Source: Gammaproteobacteria bacterium (GTDB lineage Bacteria > Pseudomonadota > Gammaproteobacteria > Pseudomonadales > Azotimanducaceae). From it: a stretch of 64,000 nt of DNA. A program made the position numbers and the translations under genes. The notes beneath the pieces were generated by a model, which made no database searches, had not been told where the DNA came from, and saw only the letters and a program-made list of their open reading frames with translations. Of this stretch, positions 50,512 through 63,685 are shown one piece after another. The stretch covers positions 1 through 64,000 of the forward strand of contig DUBB01000045.1 in NCBI GenBank assembly GCA_012960535.1, read 5' to 3'. Numbering within the stretch: position 1 is the first letter of the stretch; each line of letters starts with the position of its first letter.

Positions 50512-50546
50512 GTGAGGAAATGTGGGTAAAAGTGGATAAATGTGGG
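50512..50546 (+). promoter_or_regulatory. MraZ operator: four phased GTGRR repeats
   Basis: GTGAG (50512), GTGGG (50522), GTGGA (50532) and GTGGG (50542), each ten bases apart with AT-rich spacers. Direct TGGG-type repeats with 5-base spacers are the known MraZ binding pattern, so MraZ is expected to repress its own operon here. Confidence 0.75.
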
Positions 50547-50608: not shown

Positions 50609-51061
50609 GTGTTTAGAGGTGTAAATCAAGTCAATATGGATGCGAAGGGACGCCTGACCATTCCTACTCGTTATCGGGAGCAGATTCTGCAGTCCTGTAA
50701 TGGCGAGATTGTGGTCACGATTGATACCGAGGAGAAGTGTCTGTTGATCTATCCACAACCGGCCTGGGAAGACATTCAGAGAAAGGTAGAATCTTTGCCC
50801 AGTTTCAATGTGGCAGGCAGACGGGTACAACGCCTCCTGATTGGCCACGCCACTGATATACCGATGGATGGCAGCGGCAGAATACTGATTACACCACCGT
50901 TACGAGAATATGCCCGACTGGAAAAAAAAACGGTGCTGCTCGGTCAGGGTAATAAACTGGAATTATGGGATGAACAGATTTGGGCAGAACGCCGAGATGC
51001 CTGGTTGGAAGCTCAGCCTGAGCAGGATGTTCCTGATGAATTACTGACGTTGTCTCTGTAA
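50609..51061 (+). CDS. mraZ: Transcriptional regulator MraZ
   Basis: A 150-residue AbrB-like ring-forming DNA-binding protein that represses the dcw operon from its start. The two half-domains begin FRGVNQVNMDAKGRLTIPTRYRE and, later, IPMDGSGRILITPPLREYA, each with the conserved DxxGR motif. The GTG start has AAGGA upstream. It heads the cluster; a phased operator lies just before the gene. Confidence 0.97.
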   Translation: MFRGVNQVNMDAKGRLTIPTRYREQILQSCNGEIVVTIDTEEKCLLIYPQPAWEDIQRKVESLPSFNVAGRRVQRLLIGHATDIPMDGSGRILITPPLREYARLEKKTVLLGQGNKLELWDEQIWAERRDAWLEAQPEQDVPDELLTLSL

Positions 51062-51072
51062 AAGGTGAGGTT

Positions 51073-51990
51073 ATGGAGCATGTACCTGTTCTATTAACGG
51101 AGGCGGTCGAGGCGTTGGTGCAGGATGCAGATGGAACTTATGTGGACTGTACCTTTGGCCGAGGAGGCCATAGCGCAAGGATAATTGAGCAGTTATCCAA
51201 CAAAGGGCGATTGATGGTTTTAGATAAAGATCCAGATGCTATTGCCGTAGCGCATCAACTCTATGCTGATGATTCCCGGGTGTCTGTTGTACACGGGGCT
51301 TTTGCTGAACTGGGCAGCTTGCTCGCGGTCAGCGGGTTTGGGCCAGTGGATGGAATTTTGATGGATTTGGGGGTTTCCTCAGTCCAATTGGATTCGCCGC
51401 GAAGAGGGTTTAGTTTTCAAAAGGATGGGCCGCTGGATATGCGGATGGATAATTCAAAGGGAGAAAGTGCAGCTAAATGGCTGAATGCAGCTTCTCTAAA
51501 TGAAATAGCAAAAGTACTCAAAACGCTTGGAGAGGAAAGGTTTGCCAGGAAAATAGCGGCAGCAATTGTCAGGCAGCGAGCGGTTAAACCACTTGAAACC
51601 ACCCTCGAATTGGCGGATCTTGTCGCCTCTACAATTCCCAGAAGAGAGAAAAACAAACATCCTGCGACGCGGACTTTTCAGGCCATTCGCCTCCAGGTTA
51701 ATCAGGAGTTGGCGGAATTGCAGGCCTGCCTTGGTCAGGTACTTGAACTACTGTGCGAAAAAGGTCGGCTTGTGGTAATCAGCTTTCATTCCTTGGAAGA
51801 CAGAATTGTAAAGCGATTCATTCGAGATCTCGAGAAAAACGACCCCTATCCAAGTCGCCTGCCGATAACCAGTGACCAGATAGTCAAGCCCGTTAGGTCG
51901 TTGGGCAAAAGCGTTGCTAAACAGGCCGAAATACTGGTCAATCCACGGTCCAGGAGCGCCGTCATGCGAGTGATGGAAAAAATCATATGA
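51073..51990 (+). CDS. rsmH: 16S rRNA (cytosine-1402 N4) methyltransferase RsmH
   Basis: A 305-residue SAM-dependent methyltransferase (MraW) that N4-methylates C1402, the same nucleotide that RsmI (encoded 1 kb upstream) modifies. HVPVLLTEAVEAL, the SAM site YVDCTFGRGGHSARI, DGILMDLGVSSVQLDSPRRG and VVISFHSLEDRIVKRFI are diagnostic. It overlaps ftsL by four bases. Confidence 0.98.
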   Translation: MEHVPVLLTEAVEALVQDADGTYVDCTFGRGGHSARIIEQLSNKGRLMVLDKDPDAIAVAHQLYADDSRVSVVHGAFAELGSLLAVSGFGPVDGILMDLGVSSVQLDSPRRGFSFQKDGPLDMRMDNSKGESAAKWLNAASLNEIAKVLKTLGEERFARKIAAAIVRQRAVKPLETTLELADLVASTIPRREKNKHPATRTFQAIRLQVNQELAELQACLGQVLELLCEKGRLVVISFHSLEDRIVKRFIRDLEKNDPYPSRLPITSDQIVKPVRSLGKSVAKQAEILVNPRSRSAVMRVMEKII

Positions 51991-52334
51991 AAGAGCCCGT
52001 ATCCGCTACTGTATTTTTTCGCTGGCTGGTCGGTGCTGCACAGATACGTATTTTGGCTATCACCTTCATAGCCCTTTTTTCAAGCTTCGCAGTGATTTAC
52101 GTATCTCACCAGACAAGGGCTCTCTATGGCGCGCTGCAGGTGGGGCAGGACACTGCAGACGATCTGGATAGCGAATACGAGCAGCTTCTGTTAGAGCAAA
52201 GTGCCTGGGCAGGGTACAACCGAATCGATCAGCTAGCCAGGGAAGAGTTAGGCATGTCGTCGCCGGGCAGAGGTAGGCTCGTTTTAATGCGCAGCGCCTA
52301 TGACATTTTTTCCGTAGAAGAAGACAGGCCGTGA
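51987..52334 (+). CDS. ftsL: Cell division protein FtsL
   Basis: A 115-residue bitopic protein with a membrane helix at about 23-44 and a periplasmic leucine-zipper-like coiled coil (HQTRALYGALQVGQDTADDL and on), ending in the conserved RIDQLAREELGMSSPG. It forms the FtsQLB complex with FtsB and FtsQ and helps activate FtsW-FtsI. It overlaps both rsmH and ftsI by four bases. Confidence 0.93.
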   Translation: MKEPVSATVFFRWLVGAAQIRILAITFIALFSSFAVIYVSHQTRALYGALQVGQDTADDLDSEYEQLLLEQSAWAGYNRIDQLAREELGMSSPGRGRLVLMRSAYDIFSVEEDRP

Positions 52335-53986
52335 ATAGCAGCCTTCGAATTCATATCGCCATTATAGTTTTTGGTCTATTGGTGGCAGTGGTTGGCGCTA
52401 AGCTGATTTATCTGGAAGTAACGCAGAGAGATTTTCTACAAGACGAAGGGGATGCCAGAACCGTAAGAATGGAAAGGATCAATGCCCATAGAGGCATGAT
52501 TCTGGATCGTCGTGGCAGCCCTCTTGCAGTGAGTTCTCCTGTTGTGTCGCTATGGGCTAATCCATCGGAATTACCCGAGGAGGCAGCTGCTCTAGCGCAG
52601 TTAGCAGAGGGTCTTGGCGTTTCTGTGGAGCGATTTCAAGAGAAAATGAACCGTGCTAAGGATAGGAATTTTGTCTATCTACGACGTCACGCTCGGCCTC
52701 AGAAAGCGGATGCAATCCTGAATTTGGGCTTGTCCGGAGTCTATAGTGAAAAAGAATATCATCGATTCTATCCTTCGGGAGAAGTGACGGCGCATGTGGT
52801 TGGTTTTACTGATATTGATGATAGTGGCCAGGAAGGGTTAGAACTATCTTATGAAAATTGGTTGTCAGGGCAGGAAGGCAAGAAAAAAGTTTTAAAAAAT
52901 CTTTATGGAGAGGTGGTTAGAGACATTATGCCTGTGACCGAAGCCATTCCGGGTAAGGATTTGCATTTATCAATCGACCAGCGGCTCCAGTTTCTTGCTT
53001 ATAGGGAGCTGAAATCCGCTATTTACCAATATAAGGCGCTGTCTGGTTCCTTTGTGCTTCTGGATGTCAGCAATGGTGAGGTGCTGGCCATGGTTAACCA
53101 GCCTTCTTACAACCCTAATAACCGGGTAAGGTTAGATTTAGCTTCAATCCGTAATCGATCCGTTACAGATGTATTCGAGCCAGGTTCGACCGTTAAACCA
53201 TTTACAGTTGCGGTCGCACTGCAAAGCCCGCAGTTCTCAGCCGAATCTGTTATTGATACCAGCCCCGGTTTTATGACGGTTGGCGACGCGACCATTCGGG
53301 ATCCGAAGAACCAGGGCCTACTCGATCTCGGTGGTGTTCTGGCCTATTCAAGTCAGGTTGGAATTAGTCGTTTAGCCCTGCAGTTGAATGAATACGATAT
53401 ATGGGATTTATTTCGAAGAGTCGGATTTGGGCAGGCGTCAGGCGTGGGATACCCTGGTGAAAGCAGTGGTTTCTTGCCGAACCGCAGACGCTGGAAAGAA
53501 ATAGAAAGGGTTACTTTTGCTTATGGCTATGGCCTGACTGTGACGCCATTGCAGCTGGCATCGGCTTACATGACTATTGCCAGTGGCGGTATTAAGCGAG
53601 ATGTAACGCTATTAAATTCAGGATCAACTTTAGGAGAACGGATTCTTCCGGAGGCAGTGGCCCGTCAGTTACTGGTTATGCTGGGTCGGGTGGTGTCTGA
53701 AGGTACCGGCAAGAGAGCGGCAGTAGATACTTATGCTGTGGCTGGGAAAACGGGTACAGCCCGAAAAATTGGCAAGAATGGCTACGATGATTCTCGGCAC
53801 ATCGCCTTTTTTGCAGGTATCGCTCCCCTTGATCAGCCTAGATTTGTTGGCGTTGTCATCATTAATGAACCGAAAACCAGCAGGGTTGGCGGCGGGGCCA
53901 TTGCGGCGCCGATATTTTCTCGAGTCATGTCTAATGTCTTGCGTTTGCTCAATGTGCCGCCTACTAACACCAGAGAGGCTGTATAG
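52331..53986 (+). CDS. ftsI: Peptidoglycan transpeptidase FtsI (PBP3)
   Basis: A 551-residue septal class B penicillin-binding protein with an N-terminal membrane helix (about 8-28), the non-penicillin-binding domain (NAHRGMILDRRGSPLA) and the transpeptidase domain. The nucleophile is Ser286 in EPGSTVKP with Lys289, and the third motif is Lys473-Thr-Gly-Thr. The second motif, normally SxN (SSN in E. coli PBP3), reads Ser340-Ser341-Gln342 (AYSSQVGIS). The rest, including the ERVTFAYGYGLTVTPLQLA block, is normal, so the enzyme should be active with an altered active-site edge. Coupled to ftsL and followed directly by murE. Confidence 0.97.
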   Translation: MNSSLRIHIAIIVFGLLVAVVGAKLIYLEVTQRDFLQDEGDARTVRMERINAHRGMILDRRGSPLAVSSPVVSLWANPSELPEEAAALAQLAEGLGVSVERFQEKMNRAKDRNFVYLRRHARPQKADAILNLGLSGVYSEKEYHRFYPSGEVTAHVVGFTDIDDSGQEGLELSYENWLSGQEGKKKVLKNLYGEVVRDIMPVTEAIPGKDLHLSIDQRLQFLAYRELKSAIYQYKALSGSFVLLDVSNGEVLAMVNQPSYNPNNRVRLDLASIRNRSVTDVFEPGSTVKPFTVAVALQSPQFSAESVIDTSPGFMTVGDATIRDPKNQGLLDLGGVLAYSSQVGISRLALQLNEYDIWDLFRRVGFGQASGVGYPGESSGFLPNRRRWKEIERVTFAYGYGLTVTPLQLASAYMTIASGGIKRDVTLLNSGSTLGERILPEAVARQLLVMLGRVVSEGTGKRAAVDTYAVAGKTGTARKIGKNGYDDSRHIAFFAGIAPLDQPRFVGVVIINEPKTSRVGGGAIAAPIFSRVMSNVLRLLNVPPTNTREAV

Positions 53987-55438
53987 ATGAAGCCTCTTCA
54001 GCAAATTCTGCCAGAAGTTGGGTCAGCAGAAGTGGTGATTCATGGTATTGCCATGGATAGTCGGCAAGTGAAACCTGGGGATCTTTTTATTGCAGTCAAC
54101 GGCGCTATCAGTGATGGCCAGTGTTTTATACAGGATGCTATTGAAAACGGTGCGACGGCAGTTGTTAGGTCGCCTGCAGGTGCTGGATCCTTACGCAACA
54201 GCGTGCCGGTATTTGAGATTGAAGATCTATCGGAAAAAGTGGGTGAAATCGCGAGTCGTTTTTTTGATGAACCCTCTCAGTCCTTGGTGGTTATTGCGGT
54301 CACCGGGACCAATGGTAAGACGACTGTTACCTCCATGATAGCAGAGGCTATGAGTTCATTGGGTCGTTCTTGTGGTGTGATCGGCACATTAGGGTTTGGC
54401 AGGTCGATAAGGCAATTAACTGAAACGGGATTGACCACGCCAGATCCGGTCAACTTGCAACGGCAGCTTGCCCATCTATATCAGCAGGAGTGCCAGTGCG
54501 TTGCGCTTGAGGCTTCATCACATGGGTTGATCCAGGGGCGCCTCAATGGCACCCGGGTTTCAGCTTCCATCCTGACCAACCTTACGCAGGATCATCTTGA
54601 CTTTCACGGTGATATGGAGCGCTATCGCCGTGCCAAGGAACTGCTGTTCGAGTTGCCCGGATTACAGCTAAGAGTGGTTAATCTTGATGACGATCTTGGT
54701 AAGGCTCTTGCCAGACGATACCGAGCTGAACGAATACTGAGTTTTAGCCTGGATGAGTCCGCAGGCGCGAATATTTATTCCAGGCGTGCAAGTTTCAGTA
54801 CAACAGGCATGCGCGCTGAATTAGTAACACCTCGCGGCTCTGCGGATTTCAGCAGTGCCCTGCTTGGCCCACATAATCTCAGTAATTTGCTCGCAGCGGC
54901 AGCTGTTCTGCATTGGCAAGGATACGGTGCCGAGGAAATCGCGGGCGCGCTTTCTTCTCTAAAGGCGGTGCCAGGGAGAATGGAGGTCATCAACATTGAT
55001 GAGCGCGTATCTGCAGTCATAGATTTTGCCCACAGTGCGGACGCTTTGTTGAATGCGCTGACAACCCTGCGACAACACAAGCCGGAAAAACTAATTTGCG
55101 TGTTTGGTTGTGGTGGCGATCGCGATTCAGGCAAGCGCCAGCAGATGGGTGCTGTTGCTGCTTCGCTGGCGGATGTGATTGTACTGACCAATGACAATCC
55201 TCGCAGCGAATCTCCGCAACTAATAGTTGATGAGATTCTCAGAGGTATTTCGGATGATACGCCGGTAGAAATTGAACTGGATCGTGGCAAAGCTATCAAT
55301 CGGGGTATAGAAATGTTGGCCGGTGGTGGCGTTGTTTTGATAGCGGGTAAAGGTCATGAAAATTACCAGGAGGTGAATCGTGAGCGGATTCATTTTAATG
55401 ACAGAGAGACAGTACTTAATTATATCGCAGCAAACTGA
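53987..55438 (+). CDS. murE: UDP-MurNAc-tripeptide synthetase MurE
   Basis: A 483-residue Mur ligase adding the third amino acid to UDP-MurNAc-Ala-Glu. The ATP site is GTNGKTT (107-113). The DNPR motif (LTNDNPRSESP, near residue 405) indicates meso-diaminopimelate as substrate. It starts directly at the ftsI stop. In relatives murF and mraY follow; here murD begins 14 bases after the stop. Confidence 0.98.
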   Translation: MKPLQQILPEVGSAEVVIHGIAMDSRQVKPGDLFIAVNGAISDGQCFIQDAIENGATAVVRSPAGAGSLRNSVPVFEIEDLSEKVGEIASRFFDEPSQSLVVIAVTGTNGKTTVTSMIAEAMSSLGRSCGVIGTLGFGRSIRQLTETGLTTPDPVNLQRQLAHLYQQECQCVALEASSHGLIQGRLNGTRVSASILTNLTQDHLDFHGDMERYRRAKELLFELPGLQLRVVNLDDDLGKALARRYRAERILSFSLDESAGANIYSRRASFSTTGMRAELVTPRGSADFSSALLGPHNLSNLLAAAAVLHWQGYGAEEIAGALSSLKAVPGRMEVINIDERVSAVIDFAHSADALLNALTTLRQHKPEKLICVFGCGGDRDSGKRQQMGAVAASLADVIVLTNDNPRSESPQLIVDEILRGISDDTPVEIELDRGKAINRGIEMLAGGGVVLIAGKGHENYQEVNRERIHFNDRETVLNYIAAN

Positions 55439-55451
55439 TGGGTGAAGTCAA

Positions 55452-56780
55452 GTGTCCAATGGGAGACAGAAGGTGATAGTTGGTTTGGGGCAAACCGGAT
55501 TATCGTTGGCCAGGCACCTTGCTGAACGAGGCAAGCCTTTTTGTGTGGCGGATGATTATCCCGAGCCAGAAGCTTTGGCTCAGCTGCAGGCTATTTCGCC
55601 TTTAACCCCGGTAATCTCTATAGACCAAATTGATCCTGCGGCAACTCAGCAATTACTGTTAAGCCCTGGCGTTCCGTTGTCTTTACCCGGTATCCAGGAT
55701 TGTTTGTCCAAGGGTATTGAAGTAACAGGCGACGTCGCTTTATTTTCCAGTCAGGTAAAAGCCCCGGTAGTAGCCGTAACCGGATCTAATGGAAAGAGCA
55801 CGGTAACCTCGATGTTAGGTGCCTTTGCCTCGGCCCAGTTACCGCGGGTGGCGGTGGCAGGCAACATAGGTATTGCCTGCCTGGATGTTTTAGCCGATGA
55901 AGTGGATTATTACATTCTCGAACTGTCCAGTTATCAGCTTGATCTGGTGACAGCCATGCCGCTCGAAGTCGCTGGACTGCTGAATCTGAGCCCAGATCAC
56001 CTCGATCGTTACTCATCCGCGGAAGCCTATTTTCAGGCCAAGCTGAGTATCTTTGATAATGCCCGGACAGCGGTTATCAGTGAGCAACTGCTCGATCAGG
56101 GTTATACCCCAAATTGCGATCGCGTTGTGGTGTTTGGGGATAGTCCGCCTGGTGATAGCGGTCATTATGGCCTTACCCATAGTGGGCAAGCGTCCTGGCT
56201 GATGAAAGGCGCTGATGTGCTCATGGATTGTGCGGAATTGCAGGTATTGGGCCGGCATAATCAGTTGAATGCTTTAGCTGCACTTGCCATGGGGGATGCC
56301 ATGGGACTCGATCTTGCTCTGATGGTTGAGACCTTGCGCAACTTTAAAGGCTTGCCGCATCGCTGTGAACTGATCTGCGAAAAAGACGGTGTGAAATGGA
56401 TAAACGATTCGAAGGCAACCAATGTAGCGGCGACCCTGTCGGCGGTAGATGCCCTACCCTCGCAGGGCGGTCTGATTCTAATATTAGGCGGTGAAGCTAA
56501 AGGTGCGGATTTTTCAGCATTGCAGTCAGCCTTGTCCGGTAAAGTGAAAAAAGTTCTACTGCTCGGAGAAGCCAGAGATATCATCGCCAAGTCATTGGAT
56601 GAAAAGATCGAATGGGAAAAACAAACCGGCTATGAAACTGCTGTAGCCAGAGCCATTGAACTGGCCGATGCCGGTGATATCGTGATGCTGTCACCGGCGT
56701 GTTCAAGCCTTGACATGTTCTCCAGTTATATTGAAAGAGGAGCATTTTTCACTCAGCTGGTCAGAGAGGCTCTGCTATGA
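55452..56780 (+). CDS. murD: UDP-MurNAc-L-alanine:D-glutamate ligase MurD
   Basis: A 442-residue Mur ligase adding D-Glu. IVGLGQTGLSLARHLAERG is the N-terminal UDP-binding part, GSNGKSTVTSMLG the ATP loop (near residue 112), and WINDSKATNVAATLSA the conserved central block. The GTG start has GGGTGA six bases upstream. It overlaps ftsW by four bases. Confidence 0.98.
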   Translation: MSNGRQKVIVGLGQTGLSLARHLAERGKPFCVADDYPEPEALAQLQAISPLTPVISIDQIDPAATQQLLLSPGVPLSLPGIQDCLSKGIEVTGDVALFSSQVKAPVVAVTGSNGKSTVTSMLGAFASAQLPRVAVAGNIGIACLDVLADEVDYYILELSSYQLDLVTAMPLEVAGLLNLSPDHLDRYSSAEAYFQAKLSIFDNARTAVISEQLLDQGYTPNCDRVVVFGDSPPGDSGHYGLTHSGQASWLMKGADVLMDCAELQVLGRHNQLNALAALAMGDAMGLDLALMVETLRNFKGLPHRCELICEKDGVKWINDSKATNVAATLSAVDALPSQGGLILILGGEAKGADFSALQSALSGKVKKVLLLGEARDIIAKSLDEKIEWEKQTGYETAVARAIELADAGDIVMLSPACSSLDMFSSYIERGAFFTQLVREALL

Positions 56781-57964
56781 ATATCATGGCACGAAATTTA
56801 CGCCAGGATGATCAAGCCTGCCCGGCCGACTTGTTTATTCTGGGTTCGAGCGCCCTGTTATTGCTGATCGGTTGGGTTATGGTTACTTCTGCCTCCAGCG
56901 AAATAGCAGCCAGAAATTTCGGAAATCCTTTTTGGTATACCGGCAGGCATGGCCTCTACATTTTTATCGGACTGCTTACAGGTGCTCTTGCGCTCATGCT
57001 GCCCATCAGAGTATGGCAGCGTTCTGGTTGGGCTCTATTGCTGCTGAGTTTCTTTCTATTGGTGACTGTATTGGTTCCTGGTCTTGGCCGGGAGGTAAAT
57101 GGGGCCGTTCGCTGGATTCCGCTGGGACTTTTCAATCTGCAGGGTTCGGAATTCGTCAAGTTGTTTTCGGTTGTTTTCTTCGCGGCCTACGTTGTCAATC
57201 CAGACAATCGAGTCAATGATAGTTTCGTTTGCTTCGCCAAGCCGCTGGCTCTTATCAGCCTACTGCTGGTTCTACTGCTGGTACAGCCGGACTTCGGAGC
57301 TACAGTCGTTATTATCACGGCTGTTATTGGTGTTTTATTCTTCTCGGGCGCGCCCATGAGGTTTTTTGCGCCTACAGTCCTTTCCGGAAGTGCCATTGTG
57401 GCCTTATTGGTTGTGATGAAGCCCTACCGACTCGCACGGATACTGACTTTTACCGATCCGTGGAAGCATCCGTTTGATGGCGGCTATCAGTTGACTCAGG
57501 CCCTGATAGCCTTCGGCCGGGGTGAGTGGTTCGGTCTGGGGCTGGGTAATAGCGTTCAGAAACTGTTTTTCCTACCTGAGGCCCACACCGATTTTTTGTT
57601 TTCCATTATTGCTGAAGAGCTGGGTATTGTCGGTGGGTTTGTGATCTTAGCGGGATTTTCAGTACTGGTAATCAAGACGCTGCTGCTAGGCAAGCGAGCC
57701 TACCAGATCGAATTGCCGTTTCATGGTGGTTTGGCAACGGGAATCGGCGTGTTGTTTGGAACCCAGGCACTGATCAACTTAGGTGTCAACTTAGGACTGC
57801 TGCCCACCAAAGGGCTGACCCTGCCGTTGATGAGTTATGGCGGTAACAGCTTGATCGTAAGTTGCCTTTTAGTGGCTCTGCTGTTGCGCATCGATATGGA
57901 AGTAAAGCACCAGATGAAAATTTACCCAGCAGCAAGGAGGAACCTTCGTGATGCTCGCAGATAG
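56777..57964 (+). CDS. ftsW: Septal peptidoglycan glycosyltransferase FtsW
   Basis: A 395-residue SEDS-family membrane protein with about ten helices that polymerises septal glycan together with FtsI. Family blocks: [33 protein letters not shown] (with the catalytic-loop Asp further on in [17 protein letters not shown]) and [13 protein letters not shown]. It overlaps murD by four bases at its start and murC by 17 bases at its end; murG, usual between ftsW and murC, is absent. Confidence 0.98.
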
Positions 57965-59399
57965 ACTTGCTGATCAGAGAGAAGTTCCCGAAATGCGGCG
58001 TATCCGCAGGATACATTTTGTTGGTATTGGTGGCTCGGGTATGTGTGGCATAGCAGAAGTCCTATGCAACCAGGGGTATGAAATTACCGGCTCGGATCTA
58101 AAACGATCGGAGATCACAGAGCGATTGATTGGTCTGGGTGTTCGAATCAATTTCGGGCATGCCAGACAGCACGTACAAGGCTCGGACGTAGTGGTGGTAT
58201 CAACTGCGGTTGCCGGTCAAAATATAGAAGTTCAAGAAGCCCAGGAAAAGCGGATTCCGATTATTCGCAGAGCAGAGATGCTCGCCGAATTGATGCGTTA
58301 TCGTCATGGTATCGCTGTTGCTGGAACGCATGGTAAGACGACCACGACCAGCCTGATTGCCTCTGTTTTAGCTGAAGCTGATCTAGACCCTACGTTTATT
58401 ATCGGCGGACTGCTAAACAGTGCTGCGAGCAATGCTCGACTGGGAAGCAGTCGCTATATGGTTGCCGAAGCTGATGAAAGCGATGCGTCGTTCCTGCATT
58501 TGCAGCCTCTAGTGGCGGTTTTGACTAATGTTGATAGGGATCACCTTTCCAATTACGACGGTAGTTTTGCCAAACTGAAAGAAGCATTTCTGACCTTTGT
58601 CCATAATTTGCCTTTTTATGGTTTGCTGATCGCTTGCCAGGATGATCCCATTGTGGCGTCCATGTTGCCTTCCGTAACACGGCCGATACTGACCTATGGA
58701 TTTTCAGAAGAAGCTGACTTTCTGGCCTATGACTGGCATCAAGATGGTGCAGTTTCAGATTTCAGAGTACGCCGGAAGGGCTTTCAAGACGATCTCACGA
58801 TCTCATTAAACATGCCTGGACGACATAATGTTCTGAACGCGCTCGCGGCGGTTGCTGTCGCGTCCGACGAAGGTATTGATGATCTCAGTATACAACGCGG
58901 TCTGGCACAGTTTTCCGGTGTAGGTCGTCGCTTTGAAATCCATGGTTATTTTCAGATTGGTGATGGCCAGTTACTGCTGGTTGATGATTATGGGCATCAT
59001 CCCAATGAAGTAAAGGCAACTATCGATGCGGTGAAGACGGGTTGGCCCGACTCGCGCCTGGTGATGATCTATCAGCCGCACCGCTTTACCAGAACCTTTG
59101 AGTTGTTTGACCAGTTCGTTGAAGTCCTGCAACAGGTTGATCTACTAGTGCTGACAGAGGTCTATGGGGCAGGGGAAGAAAAAATTCCAGGGGCTACGGG
59201 TGAAGACCTGTTTAGACGTCTCCGCTTGCGTATGGCGGACAAAGTTTTGCTGGTGCCTGACATTCAGGATGTGCCCGCGTTACTGCAGGGGCTGTTGCAA
59301 CCCCAGGATGTGGTATTAACCCAAGGTGCCGGTGATACCGCTAAATTAGCGATTAACCTGAAGACTAACTGGAACGACTTGGTAGGAGAGAAGAACTGA
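57948..59399 (+). CDS. murC: UDP-MurNAc:L-alanine ligase MurC
   Basis: A 483-residue Mur ligase adding L-Ala, the first residue of the stem peptide. [18 protein letters not shown] is the UDP-binding loop, [14 protein letters not shown] the ATP site (near residue 125), and [17 protein letters not shown] a conserved C-terminal block. A perfect AAGGAGG (57934-57940) precedes the GTG by seven bases; an ATG follows one codon later. The gene begins inside ftsW and its stop overlaps the ftsQ start (TGATG); ddlB is absent. Confidence 0.98.
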
Positions 59400-60151
59400 T
59401 GAAACAGCTTAGAACATTGAGTTTCATGCAATCCGGCAATTGCCTGCTGAAAGCGCTGTTTTTGAGTGTTTTATCCTGGAGCACTGTCGGACTGGCCTAT
59501 GGAGACGGAGATATTCAGTTTCTGGTCATCAGTGGGGACCTGACCGAACAGCAGAAGCAGGCCGTAAAAGTCATGTTGGTAAAGGCTGGAGATTCGTTAG
59601 CCGATATTGTCAAGGTAAAACGAGATCTTGAAAACTCGGATTGGATTGCGACCACAGACGTAACTTATCGATGGCCGGATGAGCTGTATCTCGAGGTGAC
59701 GCCGGAGAAACCTATCGCTTACTGGAATAATCAGGCCTTTATAAATGATCACGGTAAGATTTTTAGTTCCGAATATATTATCGCAGGGAATTTACCCCAG
59801 TTGTATGGTCAGAACGAAGCGGTTGGTGAAGTGATGAGGTATTACCACGAGGTTACCCGAGCGCTTTCTTCGACCGATCAGACAGTTAAAACCCTGCGGG
59901 TGAATGGACGTGGATCGGTTGAATTCGAATTGTCTGATGGCTGGCGGATATTGCTGGGTAATGTTGAAGTTGGTCAGCGTCTGCAGCGGGCTTTTAAGGT
60001 CATGTCTCGTTTAAGGAACATGAGTGAGAGGCAAGCCATGGTGCGAATAGATGCCCGTTATTCGGATGGTGTGGCCATCAATGGATCTATTCTTACCAGA
60101 GATACCTTAATCAGTGTAAATCAAAACACAAATGCGAGTAACGAACTATGA
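59399..60151 (+). CDS. ftsQ: Cell division protein FtsQ
   Basis: A 250-residue bitopic division protein. After a short cytoplasmic tail and a membrane helix (about 14-34) comes the POTRA domain (IQFLVISGDLTEQQKQAVK; FxVxG-like start) and the FtsQ domain with WPDELYLEVTPEKPIAYWN, LPQLYGQNEAVGEVM and the late SDGWRILLGNVEVGQRLQR block (in two parts). The cytoplasmic tail is shorter than in E. coli. Coupled to murC and ftsA. Confidence 0.93.
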   Translation: MKQLRTLSFMQSGNCLLKALFLSVLSWSTVGLAYGDGDIQFLVISGDLTEQQKQAVKVMLVKAGDSLADIVKVKRDLENSDWIATTDVTYRWPDELYLEVTPEKPIAYWNNQAFINDHGKIFSSEYIIAGNLPQLYGQNEAVGEVMRYYHEVTRALSSTDQTVKTLRVNGRGSVEFELSDGWRILLGNVEVGQRLQRAFKVMSRLRNMSERQAMVRIDARYSDGVAINGSILTRDTLISVNQNTNASNEL

Positions 60152-61377
60152 ATGTTTCTAATCAGCAGCGCATGATCGTTGGCTTGGATATTGGTACTTC
60201 TAAAGTTGTTGCCATAGTAGGAGAAATTAATCCGGAAGGCACTTTGGAAATAATCGGGATTGGCAGCCATTCGTCCCGTGGTTTAAAAAAAGGCGTGGTT
60301 ATCAATATTGATTCGACCGTACAGTCCATACAACGGGCGGTTGAGGAAGCAGAACTTATGGCGGGATGTCAGATACATTCAGTCTATGCAGGTATAGCAG
60401 GAAATCACATCAGGAGTCTGAATTCTCACGGAATTGTGGCCATTCGAGATCGCGAGGTCTTCCAGCCTGATATTGAACGTGTCATAGATGCTGCCCAGGC
60501 GGTTGCTATACCGGCTGATCAGAAAATATTGCATATCCTGCCGCAGGAATACGTCATCGATAATCAGGAAGGGGTGAAAGAGCCCCTGGGGATGTCTGGC
60601 GTCCGGCTAGAGGCGAAGGTACATTTAGTGACCTGTGCTGTCAACGCTGCTCAGAACATTGAAAAGTGCATACGACAATGTGGTTTGGAGGTTGACGATA
60701 TTATCCTTGAGCAACTGGCATCAAGCCATGCTGTACTGACCGAAGACGAAAAGGAACTGGGCGTTTGTCTAGTTGATATCGGTGGCGGTACTTCTGATAT
60801 TGCCATCTATACCGAGGGTGCTATCAGGCATACAGCGGTCATTCCAATTGCCGGCGATCAGGTGACAAATGACGTTGCCATGGCATTACGAACGCCCACC
60901 CCTCACGCGGAAGAGATAAAGATAAAATACGCGTGCGCGCTGGCTTCTCTTGCCGGTGAGAACGAAACCATCCAGGTACCGAGCGTGGGTGATCGACAAG
61001 ACCGTTCGCTTTCCAGACAGGCTCTGGCTGAGGTGGTTGAACCTCGGTACGAGGAATTGTTTAACCTCATTCAGGCTGAATTGCGTCGCAGTGGTTTTGA
61101 ACATCTGATAGCGGCTGGAATTGTACTAACAGGCGGCACTTCGAAAATGGAGGGTGTTGTGGAACTTGCCGAAGAAATATTCCATATGCCAGTGAGCATT
61201 GGCAAACCAAGGTGCTTTTCCGGTCTGGCAGACATTGTTAGAAATCCAATATATGCAACTGCAGTTGGCTTGTTGCAATACGGGTCCTCTCAAGCGCCTG
61301 GTTTGGGGCGGGTCAAATCAAAAATAGATAGTGAGTCATTGGTTGGCAGAGTCAAGCAATGGTTCATGGGTAATTGA
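60148..61377 (+). CDS. ftsA: Cell division protein FtsA
   Basis: A 409-residue actin-like protein that tethers FtsZ to the membrane. MIVGLDIGTSKVVAIVGEI is phosphate-1, VDIGGGTSDIAIY phosphate-2 and GIVLTGGTSKMEGVVEL the adenosine motif; the C-terminal amphipathic membrane helix is GRVKQWFMGN. It overlaps ftsQ by four bases and precedes ftsZ by 41 bases. Confidence 0.98.
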   Translation: MNVSNQQRMIVGLDIGTSKVVAIVGEINPEGTLEIIGIGSHSSRGLKKGVVINIDSTVQSIQRAVEEAELMAGCQIHSVYAGIAGNHIRSLNSHGIVAIRDREVFQPDIERVIDAAQAVAIPADQKILHILPQEYVIDNQEGVKEPLGMSGVRLEAKVHLVTCAVNAAQNIEKCIRQCGLEVDDIILEQLASSHAVLTEDEKELGVCLVDIGGGTSDIAIYTEGAIRHTAVIPIAGDQVTNDVAMALRTPTPHAEEIKIKYACALASLAGENETIQVPSVGDRQDRSLSRQALAEVVEPRYEELFNLIQAELRRSGFEHLIAAGIVLTGGTSKMEGVVELAEEIFHMPVSIGKPRCFSGLADIVRNPIYATAVGLLQYGSSQAPGLGRVKSKIDSESLVGRVKQWFMGN

Positions 61378-61418
61378 TAACTAAATATTTAATATTTCTG
61401 TAAAACGGAGGAAGTCAC

Positions 61419-62576
61419 ATGTTTGAATTAGTCGATAGTAAACCACAGCACGCGGTAATTAAGGTTATCGGAGTGGGCGGCGGCGGTGGTAACGCTGTGC
61501 AGCACATGGTCGATCATCATGTTGAGGGAGTTGATTTCATCTGTGCAAACACAGATGCGCAGGCCCTGCAGAGATTAACGGCCAGAACGCTACTGCAACT
61601 GGGGACAGACCTTACCAAGGGGCTGGGAGCAGGCGCCAACCCAAGCGTTGGTAAAGACGCAGCGCTTGAGGACAGAGAACGAATATCTGAAGTACTTTAT
61701 GGTGCCGATATGGTCTTCATTACGGCCGGCATGGGCGGCGGGACGGGAACAGGTGCTGCTCCCATAGTGGCCAGTATTGCTAAAGAAATGGGTATATTGA
61801 CGGTCGCGGTGGTGACCAAGCCTTTCCCCTTTGAAGGTCGCAAGAGAATGCAGATCGCAGAAGCTGGGATTTCTGAACTGGCAGAATATGTCGATTCCCT
61901 GATTACGGTGCCGAATGAAAAGCTGATGACCATTATGGGTCAGGATGCACCCTTGTTAGAGGCTTTTGCAGCTGTTGATAACGTGTTGCTGGGAGCCGTG
62001 CAAGGGATAGCGGATTTGATTATAAGACCTGGGATTATCAATGTTGACTTTGCCGATGTGCGTACGGTGATGTCTGAGATGGGGATGGCTATGATGGGTA
62101 GTGGCCTGGCAATTGGTGCAGACCGAGCCAGTAAAGCTGCGGAAGCGGCTGTAAGAAGTCCATTGCTCGAAGATGTTGATTTCAATGGTGCTCGAGGGAT
62201 ATTGGTTAATATTGCGGCCGGGATTGATATTACCCTAACTGAGTTTTCTCAGGTAGGGGCAACGATCGAGGAATTTGCTTCTGAAAATGCAACGGTGGTG
62301 ATTGGTACCGTAATTGATCCGGAGATGGGTGAAGAAATGCGAGTCACTGTAGTCGCTACCGGCCTAGGCCTGGCTCTGGAAGAACGGAACACCCTGGAGC
62401 TGGCCGAGAAGGTCAGGCGGAAGATCGCTGGTGATGGGGATTATGGAGAATTTGATACGCCGACTGTGATTCGAAATGCGCCTGCCAGTAGTGAAGCTCA
62501 CGAAGAGCGGTTGGGCAGAGCAAGGGATCTCGAATACTTAGATATCCCTGCTTTTCTGCGAAGACAAGCGGATTAA
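61419..62576 (+). CDS. ftsZ: Cell division protein FtsZ
   Basis: A 385-residue tubulin-like GTPase that builds the division ring. Visible are IGVGGGGGNAVQHMV, the tubulin signature GGGTGTG (106-112), the T7-loop NVDFADVRTVM and the C-terminal FtsA/ZipA-binding peptide YLDIPAFLRRQ. The linker before that peptide is short, as in E. coli. GGAGG precedes the ATG. A hairpin terminator follows. Confidence 0.99.
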   Translation: MFELVDSKPQHAVIKVIGVGGGGGNAVQHMVDHHVEGVDFICANTDAQALQRLTARTLLQLGTDLTKGLGAGANPSVGKDAALEDRERISEVLYGADMVFITAGMGGGTGTGAAPIVASIAKEMGILTVAVVTKPFPFEGRKRMQIAEAGISELAEYVDSLITVPNEKLMTIMGQDAPLLEAFAAVDNVLLGAVQGIADLIIRPGIINVDFADVRTVMSEMGMAMMGSGLAIGADRASKAAEAAVRSPLLEDVDFNGARGILVNIAAGIDITLTEFSQVGATIEEFASENATVVIGTVIDPEMGEEMRVTVVATGLGLALEERNTLELAEKVRRKIAGDGDYGEFDTPTVIRNAPASSEAHEERLGRARDLEYLDIPAFLRRQAD

Positions 62577-62755: not shown

Positions 62756-63685
62756 ATGATTAGGCAAAAAACACTAAAAAATGTGATACGAGCGACGGGT
62801 ATTGGTTTACATACCGGCGAGAAAGTTTATTTAACTTTGCGACCTGCACCCGTTAATACCGGCATCGTATTTATTAGGTCTGACCTGACAAAGGCGATTG
62901 AAATCAAAGCCTGTAACGAATCCGTAGTAGACACTACGCTGGCAACCACAGTAGGCAAGAGTGATGTTCGAATTTCAACAGTAGAACATGTTTTGGCGGC
63001 TTTATCTGGGTTAGCTATCGATAATCTCTATGTGGAGGTGAGCGGTCCTGAAATGCCGATCATGGATGGTAGTGCAGCAACCTTCGTTTTTCTCATTCAG
63101 TCAGCAGGGATAGAAGAGCAAGCCGCGCTTAAGCGATTTATCCGCATAAAGAAACCGATTCATGTCACGGGTGAAAATAGCAGCCGGGACTTTGGGCAGT
63201 CCGTCTCTTTAACCCCTTATAACGGTTTTAAATTAGCTCATACTATTGTTTATGACAATGCGGTCATTAAGCGACAGCAAGCCTGCGTAGATTTTGCAAA
63301 TACGTCATTTGTTAAATCCATCAGTCGAGCAAGAACATTTGGACTTATGCAAGAGTTTGAACAGTTAAGAGAGATGAACCTTGCCCAGGGAGGCAGTCTC
63401 GATAACGCAATTGTTGTAGATGAGTTTAGGATATTAAATGATGATGGCCTGCGTCTTGATGATGAATTTGTGCGTCATAAGATTTTGGATGCACTAGGCG
63501 ACTTGTACCTGCTTGGTCACAGCATCATCGGAGAATTTGTAGGCTATAAGTCTGGCCATAGTGAAAATCATGCCCTTCGGTGTGCATTGCTGGCCGACAA
63601 GGACGCATGGGAAATAGTCAGTTTCCCGGACCGGCAGAAGGCGCCACTCGCATACGCCCGCCTGGCTGGATTAGAGTACGCTTAA
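62756..63685 (+). CDS. lpxC: UDP-3-O-acyl-N-acetylglucosamine deacetylase
   Basis: A 309-residue zinc enzyme catalysing the committed step of lipid A synthesis. Zinc ligands are His78 ([10 protein letters not shown]), His241 and Asp245 ([13 protein letters not shown]); the catalytic His268 is in [25 protein letters not shown] is the usual N-terminus. It follows ftsZ in the conserved order but after a 179-base gap with a hairpin, and a TAAAAT box (62722-62727) may be part of its own promoter. Confidence 0.98.

Follow-up and report, generated by a model that had tools for sequence, protein, structure and literature searches.

How does a bacterium make lipid II when its division and cell wall (dcw) cluster lacks murF, mraY, murG and ddlB? 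The question is raised by the 64,000-base stretch analysed here (the window), which comprises bases 1-64,000 of contig C45 (DUBB01000045.1; 69,941 bases) in a draft genome from the gammaproteobacterial family Azotimanducaceae (4.24 Mb in 53 contigs, 93.6% complete). A complete gammaproteobacterial dcw cluster carries the four genes between murE and ftsQ, whereas the cluster in the window (ftsI to ftsZ, 52331-62576) has none of them. An earlier interpretation made from the letters alone (the sequence-only reading) had noticed this gap and expected the enzymes to be encoded elsewhere or replaced by unusual ones. A genome-wide search bore out that expectation, as homologues of all four were found. 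We consider it very probable that the enzymes making lipid II have been displaced clade-wide by foreign or divergent versions, and that in part of the family a divergent MraY-like protein, here called MraY-D, does the job of MraY.

The missing enzymes are encoded at unlinked sites

In the window's genome, murF (C42:26533-27762) scored 310 bits with TIGR01143 (cut-off 288.6) and ddl (C40:40111-41022) scored 292.1 bits with TIGR01205 (cut-off 245.65). The murG gene (C27:76393-77436) missed the TIGR01133 cut-off (239 bits; cut-off 250.25) and passed NF009102, the model for the PRK12446 type of MurG (371.7 bits; cut-off 339). The MurGs of two relatives also passed NF009102 (359.8 and 347.7 bits) and that of a third missed it (308.6 bits); control MurGs (E. 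coli, one of the same order and two from outside the Gammaproteobacteria) matched only TIGR01133 at an E-value of 1e-60. MraY-D (349 aa; C42:13409-14455) is the sole PF00953 protein of the window's genome (97.1 bits; gathering threshold 27) and the only candidate there for the MraY step.

These features are unusual within the order. Among 115 of its genomes, the model cut-offs were exceeded by murF in 113 and by mraY in 113. The four murF scores of the family were the lowest in any genome with a whole murF (265.7 to 310.1 bits; the next was 336.9), that of relative G039 (265.7 bits) falling below the TIGR01143 cut-off, and its four murG genes were the only whole ones below their cut-off (221 to 239 bits versus 304 to 378 for the others; murG was split in two further genomes). 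A whole MraY match below the cut-off was seen in the window's genome alone, G053 having merely a contig-end piece. When 22 clusters from other families of the order were examined by tblastn, mraY, murF and murG were present in all 22 and ddlB in 21; a simple gene picker, which missed some genes in overlapping frames, found all four in 17 of the same clusters.

Foreign tree positions of MurF and MurG

Four MurF sequences of the family group with those of non-gammaproteobacterial Pseudomonadota (100/99), and four MurG sequences with PRK12446-type MurGs of Anoxybacillus, Cytobacillus and Legionella adelaidensis (100/100). The MurG of the window's genome is 48% identical to that of Anoxybacillus, 46% to that of L. 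adelaidensis and 29% to that of E. coli. The single Ddl sequence, from the window's genome, lies outside gammaproteobacterial Ddl (100/100). Approximately unbiased (AU) tests ruled against a placement among the Gammaproteobacteria for MurF, with p 0.0004, and for MurG, with p 2.5e-6; for Ddl the outcome was marginal (p 0.043), so that a foreign origin of Ddl is suggested only marginally by its tree. Control trees placed murE, murD, murC, ftsI, rsmH and the canonical mraY of the family on the gammaproteobacterial side; one non-gammaproteobacterial row for murD and two for murC also fell there, the family rows did not always form one group, and support was weak for some trees (82 for murE; 93/83 for murC).

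These trees bear on simple relocation, in which native murF, mraY, murG and ddlB would have moved and then diverged quickly. All four families are indeed encoded elsewhere in the genome, and long branches could mislead trees, but the family MurGs group with those of Anoxybacillus, Cytobacillus and L. adelaidensis, the MurG of the window's genome is more similar to the Anoxybacillus and L. adelaidensis proteins than to that of E. coli, the gammaproteobacterial placement is rejected for both MurF and MurG, and MraY-D is a distinct, divergent subfamily whose relatives with the same signature occur in gut scaffolds (see below). Relocation of native genes, which the sequence-only reading had entertained, did not hold up as a general explanation and we judge it improbable; for Ddl alone it is possible, given the p-value of 0.043.

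MraY-D resembles MraY in predicted fold and catalytic residues

Searches of solved-structure sequences with MraY-D matched nothing but MraYs, with five distinct chains each time. A structural model was made of the L025 relative (pLDDT 73.1, pTM 0.77; much of residues 284-349 was poorly predicted). It fitted nine MraY entries with Z scores of 31.2-32.2, the best being 5ckr (Z 32.2, rmsd 3.0, 312 residues aligned); 4j72 gave Z 28.1 and human DPAGT1 Z 25.7-27.8. As modelled for this relative, MraY-D has the MraY fold, shared over most of its length with the canonical structures (TIGR00445 family) from Aquifex, Hydrogenivirga and E. coli.

We compared MraY-D with 43 canonical MraYs at 100 columns that do not vary in 95% or more of the latter: 47 are kept in MraY-D and 52 have another majority residue. 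D117 and D118 have a catalytic role in MraY. Both of these, together with N190, D193, D196, N255, D265 and H324, are kept in 47/47 MraY-D sequences (p 0.002 versus the other columns, for a set of eight catalytic or substrate positions chosen after the alignment table had been seen). D265 is named as essential in PMC6606608. In a tree rooted on two WecA-like PF00953 proteins (~547 aa), MraY-D falls on the MraY side, where it forms a long separate branch outside the canonical MraYs, Aquifex included.

MraY-D most likely makes lipid I and would fill the same gap between MurF and MurG as canonical MraY. MurC, MurD and MurE from the cluster would make UDP-MurNAc-tripeptide, to which the unlinked Ddl and MurF would supply and add D-Ala-D-Ala. 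MraY-D would then transfer phospho-MurNAc-pentapeptide to undecaprenyl phosphate, giving lipid I, and the PRK12446-type MurG would convert this to lipid II. On this scheme, parts of the pathway are replaced but its end product would be the usual one.

Canonical MraY and MraY-D exclude each other in the genomes searched

Across 206 genomes of the family, MraY-D was found in 55 (51 whole, 4 fragments), a distant match only in 131 and no match in 20. A scan of GTDB 220 contigs gave 42 MraY-D loci, all in metagenome-assembled genomes (68-96% identical where whole) and labelled variously Pseudomonadales, Gammaproteobacteria, Proteobacteria, SAR86 cluster, K189A and OM182. The TIGR00445 cut-off was passed by none of 43 clade genomes; 42 had a low match and the 43rd only a contig-end piece. 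A joint query, which combined the window's MurD with the canonical MraY from a relative, was run on 75 genomes (the 55 with MraY-D, 15 of the 20 without a match and 5 canonical controls). Canonical MraY was found in 0/55 MraY-D genomes and in 5/5 controls. Thus, the two forms are mutually exclusive in the genomes searched.

This exclusion also bears on whether MraY-D might be a WecA-like transferase for another polymer, the true MraY lying in an unsequenced part of the genome. Uridine and Loop E pocket residues are changed in MraY-D, and in some clade genomes the MraY model also weakly matches other proteins, which are presumably WecA-like. However, none of the 55 genomes yielded a canonical MraY, the two forms exclude each other, the best fold matches and all the solved-structure hits are MraYs, and the rooted tree puts MraY-D on the MraY side; we regard this alternative as quite improbable. 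The two WecA-like proteins read belong to the same superfamily as MraY-D but differ in lying on the opposite side of a branch of length 1.3 and in their gene setting, one being beside an exosortase-like gene, and WecA-like proteins were rejected as its source.

Kin of the proposed replacements and the plasmid genes

Among 397 further genomes sampled across the phylum, no protein scored above 123.5 bits with MraY-D. Viral contigs gave 21 pattern matches, none of them a relative, and among 42 plasmid records the 10 listed matches were 26-32% identical, the level of canonical MraY; both sources were rejected. Two scaffolds from human faeces, on the other hand, encode relatives that are 38% and 36% identical to MraY-D, join the divergent clade at 100/99 and carry the signature K73, C191, V195, L262, R269, K305, D325 and R328. 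The MraY-D subfamily is therefore wider than the family of the window. These scaffolds (L174, 280-1242; L175, 3548-4612) were deposited as 'Bacteriophage sp.' but look bacterial by gene content, and no dcw gene was seen alongside.

A plasmid of Anoxybacillus amylolyticus (NZ_CP015440.1; L179, 752-7068) holds murF, a VanG-like D-Ala ligase gene and a PRK12446-type murG within 7 kb, and its wall-precursor genes lie near a circular bacteriocin gene. In a plasmid record of L. adelaidensis, itself a gammaproteobacterium (L178, 5992-7062), a PRK12446-type MurG is encoded alongside core genes such as nadC and mreC. A murG-M20 peptidase pair common to the family and L. adelaidensis was considered and rejected, as the two M20 genes are unlike (blastp E 2). 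The A. amylolyticus arrangement, with a MurG that is close kin to the family's, invites the idea that a single mobile cassette brought all the replacements, but the family MurF groups with non-gammaproteobacterial Pseudomonadota rather than with the plasmid MurF, and the genes lie on three contigs in the window's genome. We find a cassette very improbable.

The gap recurs in sister clusters

The dcw locus was retrieved from 40 of the 55 MraY-D genomes, and that of one more is in the window; of the other 14, 8 have a MurD match and 6 do not. In all, we read 60 family clusters, 40 from MraY-D genomes, 11 from genomes with no MraY and 9 from genomes with canonical MraY. In the first two groups, murE adjoins murD in 50/50 loci holding murE (the 51st begins at murD), whereas the order is murE-mraY-murD in 9/9 canonical-MraY relatives. 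No murF, murG or ddlB was present in any of the 60 clusters in the stretch read, those with canonical MraY included. Junctions are tight throughout the sister loci read, in line with the sequence-only reading, the commonest murD-ftsW and murC-ftsQ spacing being -4. In two sister species, murE and murD form a single open frame (925 codons in G310, L139 4556-7330; 921 codons in G309, L146 4575-7337), likely a MurE-MurD fusion formed where murF and mraY were lost, judging from the sequence. In G300, murE is in two pieces (a frame break or a sequence gap in the draft), with no mraY before murD.

Although the genome is a 53-contig, 93.6% complete draft, an assembly artefact (the missing genes truly lying between the junctions, or a chimeric cluster) can practically be dismissed, since the same join is found in 50/50 sister loci holding murE, including contigs of 0.56, 1.5 and 2.5 Mb (G198, G334 and G310), and murE and murD share one open frame in G309 and G310. 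The comparison with sister genomes thus upholds the earlier view that the gap is old. That view had also placed the losses at three separate points. The genes are indeed missing at three junctions, but a single event does not account for them, since murF, murG and ddlB are gone from 60/60 clusters and mraY is kept in the nine canonical ones; it follows that the first three disappeared early, and mraY at a later stage or more than once.

We propose that the family ancestor would have acquired MurF, MurG and Ddl genes of foreign or divergent type at other chromosomal sites, this order of events and the foreign origin of Ddl being our inference. The native murF, murG and ddlB copies would then have been lost from the dcw cluster, and part of the family would also have lost native mraY, with MraY-D taking over.

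Family history of mraY

A family tree built by a quick method from six joined cluster proteins has a clade A of 46 rows, none with a cluster mraY, and a clade B of 15 rows, of which 9 are canonical, 5 are divergent and 1 gave no MraY. The clade-B rows that lack a cluster mraY occupy four positions: the base (G186), an open fork (G210), a place beside canonical G299 (G300 and G301) and one beside canonical G223 (G221 and G222). On this tree at least 4 changes of cluster mraY are needed. G237 has MraY-D but was not counted as a switch, because it gave no MurD match and its cluster was not seen. In a tree of MraY-D only, clades A and B split at 100/100, although the bootstrap had not fully settled. 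The ancestor may have had both MraYs, one being lost in each line; the alternative would be transfer between lines. In clade A, 30 of the 39 loci examined (3 of 42 were excluded) have a hemF-like gene within ~8 kb of the MraY-D gene, and the kept neighbourhood indicates that MraY-D is an old resident of this clade.

Evidence weighing against the proposed replacement

Several points weigh against the displacement of the lipid II-making enzymes as set out here. First, Ddl is represented by a single family sequence, having been sought in the window's genome only. Secondly, MraY-D missed the TIGR00445 equivalog cut-off (109.8-110.6 bits; cut-off 192.05). It also differs from canonical MraY in its identity of ~30% and in its place outside the dcw cluster. 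The Loop E HHH motif is HDH in 47/47 MraY-D sequences, and further conserved residues are changed. K70 aligns with a gap or with S depending on the alignment, and K121 with a gap, neither position having K; T75 is changed in nearly all sequences (G186 keeps T); F262 (to L or M), Q305 (to K), L195 and H325 are changed in 47/47, as is A321, where the alignment is uncertain. The missed cut-off, the HDH motif and the changed residues mean that the substrate of MraY-D could differ. Furthermore, the solved MraY 5jnq (Z 26.6) fits the MraY-D model no better than DPAGT1.

Thirdly, when the tree is rooted on canonical MraY, the clade-B MraY-Ds do not stay together. The earliest branches are G186 and G237 and, once the gut proteins are added, G186 sits beside these, weakly (82/41). 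This placement speaks against plain vertical descent and could come from transfer, or it could reflect a root misplaced by long branches, and it is on long branches that the deep tree positions rest. Finally, the census has exceptions. Of the 15 no-match genomes in the joint query, 12 have MurD and neither form of MraY (eight family genomes besides G334, G322, G192 and G208), whereas incompleteness would predict 7.9 +/- 2.5; 11 of these 12 clusters were read and none has mraY, and a third form of MraY may exist in these genomes. G201 and G213 gave nothing, and G328 (62% complete) holds an unexplained 95-residue piece that is 46% like canonical MraY (G328:C94:3396-3677). The genomes are for the most part drafts split into many contigs, and among the 131 with a distant match 9 were read at cluster level. 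G328 belongs to the window's own genus, the other members of which gave solely MraY-D or no MraY.

A possible second class of lipid I synthase, precedents and significance

A bolder version of the displacement would make MraY-D a second type of lipid I synthase, equivalent in function but with its nucleotide and Loop E pocket rebuilt, that has repeatedly changed places with canonical MraY. The pocket could resist natural MraY inhibitors or the lysis proteins of phages; pressure of this kind on the lipid II steps would account for the swapping of all four pentapeptide-stage enzymes and the retention of MurC, MurD and MurE. This proposal is tentative and we think it rather unlikely as a whole. 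Inhibitor-binding roles are given for K70, T75, D193, L195, F262, Q305, A321 and H325 in PMC6606608. An inhibitor-driven change of the pocket was rejected, as 8/14 inhibitor-contact positions are changed versus 44/86 other conserved columns (p 0.78), with no enrichment; since inhibitor contacts are no more changed than other columns, inhibitor resistance is a guess. A hot spot in TM9/Loop E (14/19 versus 38/81 changed, p 0.043) was a post hoc finding and was not relied on. Positions 170, 172, 186 and 291, which we take to be sites for phage protein E, differ in MraY-D. The protein E site was rejected as a cause, however, as F288 of E. coli MraY, so named in PMC11812184, is kept as F in 47/47 MraY-D sequences.

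MraY is generally regarded as a universal enzyme without substitute. Its exchange for a ~30%-identical form, with none of the genomes searched having both, would demonstrate that MraY is replaceable. A search of one open-licence library found no published description of a replaced or second bacterial MraY, and in a study of dcw evolution the MraY tree is described as the most congruent with the species tree (PMC8871954). The nearest tested precedent for a replaced dcw enzyme is MglA, a protein able to stand in for MurG in Kitasatospora and S. coelicolor (PMC8092295). MglA, like the proteins described here, is a distant homologue encoded outside the dcw cluster that is able to take over from an essential dcw enzyme. 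In the same account, however, it replaces MurG in genomes that also have a dcw murG, whereas the family shows complete replacement at four steps. Similarly, the MurG of the window's genome scores as a PRK12446-type MurG, but it occurs in a gammaproteobacterial family and instead of the dcw murG rather than beside it. The MraY-like protein of archaeal pseudomurein synthesis (PMC11915815) is likewise a member of the MraY-like family in a wall pathway, but MraY-D scores only 25.6 bits with that model (cut-off 450).

The pairs of canonical and divergent MraY offer a natural series for testing which MraY residues are truly needed. Findings on inhibitors of the canonical pocket may not apply to every bacterium, and genomes such as these would be labelled MraY-less wherever annotation relies on TIGR00445 or on position in the dcw cluster.

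Organization of the window's cluster and neighbouring genes

The cluster lies on the forward strand in the order mraZ-rsmH-ftsL-ftsI-murE-murD-ftsW-murC-ftsQ-ftsA-ftsZ-lpxC. The genes mraZ (50609..51061), ftsL (51987..52334), ftsA (60148..61377), ftsZ (61419..62576) and lpxC (62756..63685) were assigned by gene order as in the sister loci, while rsmH (mraW; 51073..51990) and ftsI (52331..53986), like murE, were also placed by the control trees. The sequence-only reading called the genes flanking the gaps full length. This is so for the following four, and MurE (53987..55438; TIGR01085, 511.6 bits, cut-off 257.3), MurD (55452..56780; TIGR01087, 384.2 bits, cut-off 211.95), FtsW (56777..57964; TIGR02614, 393 bits, cut-off 337.5) and MurC (57948..59399; TIGR01082, 551.4 bits, cut-off 335.1) all exceed their curated NCBIfam cut-offs. 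FtsQ (59399..60151; 250 aa) exceeds the Pfam FtsQ_DivIB_C cut-off (61.8 bits; cut-off 21) and falls below the NCBIfam FtsQ model (82 versus 366 bits) and the POTRA model (20.5 versus 23 bits), and is thus a weak FtsQ by profile models.

Two of the junctions are exactly as had been described: murE, which ends in TGA at 55438, is followed after 13 bases (55439..55451) by the GTG start of murD at 55452, at the point where murF and mraY are absent, and murC and ftsQ share TGATG at 59399, with no ddlB between them. No murG lies between ftsW and murC, and the 17-base overlap claimed there is conditional because several murC start codons are possible. It stands for GTG at 57948, which gives the longest frame, but ATG at 57951 would reduce it to 14 bases and ATG at 57993 would leave a 28-base gap.

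Three GTGG(G/A) repeats with 10-base spacing (50522..50546, forward strand) lie 5' of mraZ and resemble a MraZ box. No such array was found in the 300 bases before any of the four unlinked genes, murF having one lone GTGGG. Escape of the lipid II enzymes from MraZ control, raised in the sequence-only reading for relocated genes, is accordingly plausible at the DNA level only.

Around the unlinked genes, neighbours were named by eye or by similarity to those in the window's genome. In 4/4 family genomes read, murG is directly 3' of an hda-like gene and murF is beside or near a moaA-like gene, with one intervening gene in the window's genome. Second MurF-like matches were also seen in other families of the order (G073:C1:3076129-3077304, G078:C7:184626-185918 and G100:C34:41986-43059), two of them in frames of more than 1,000 aa.

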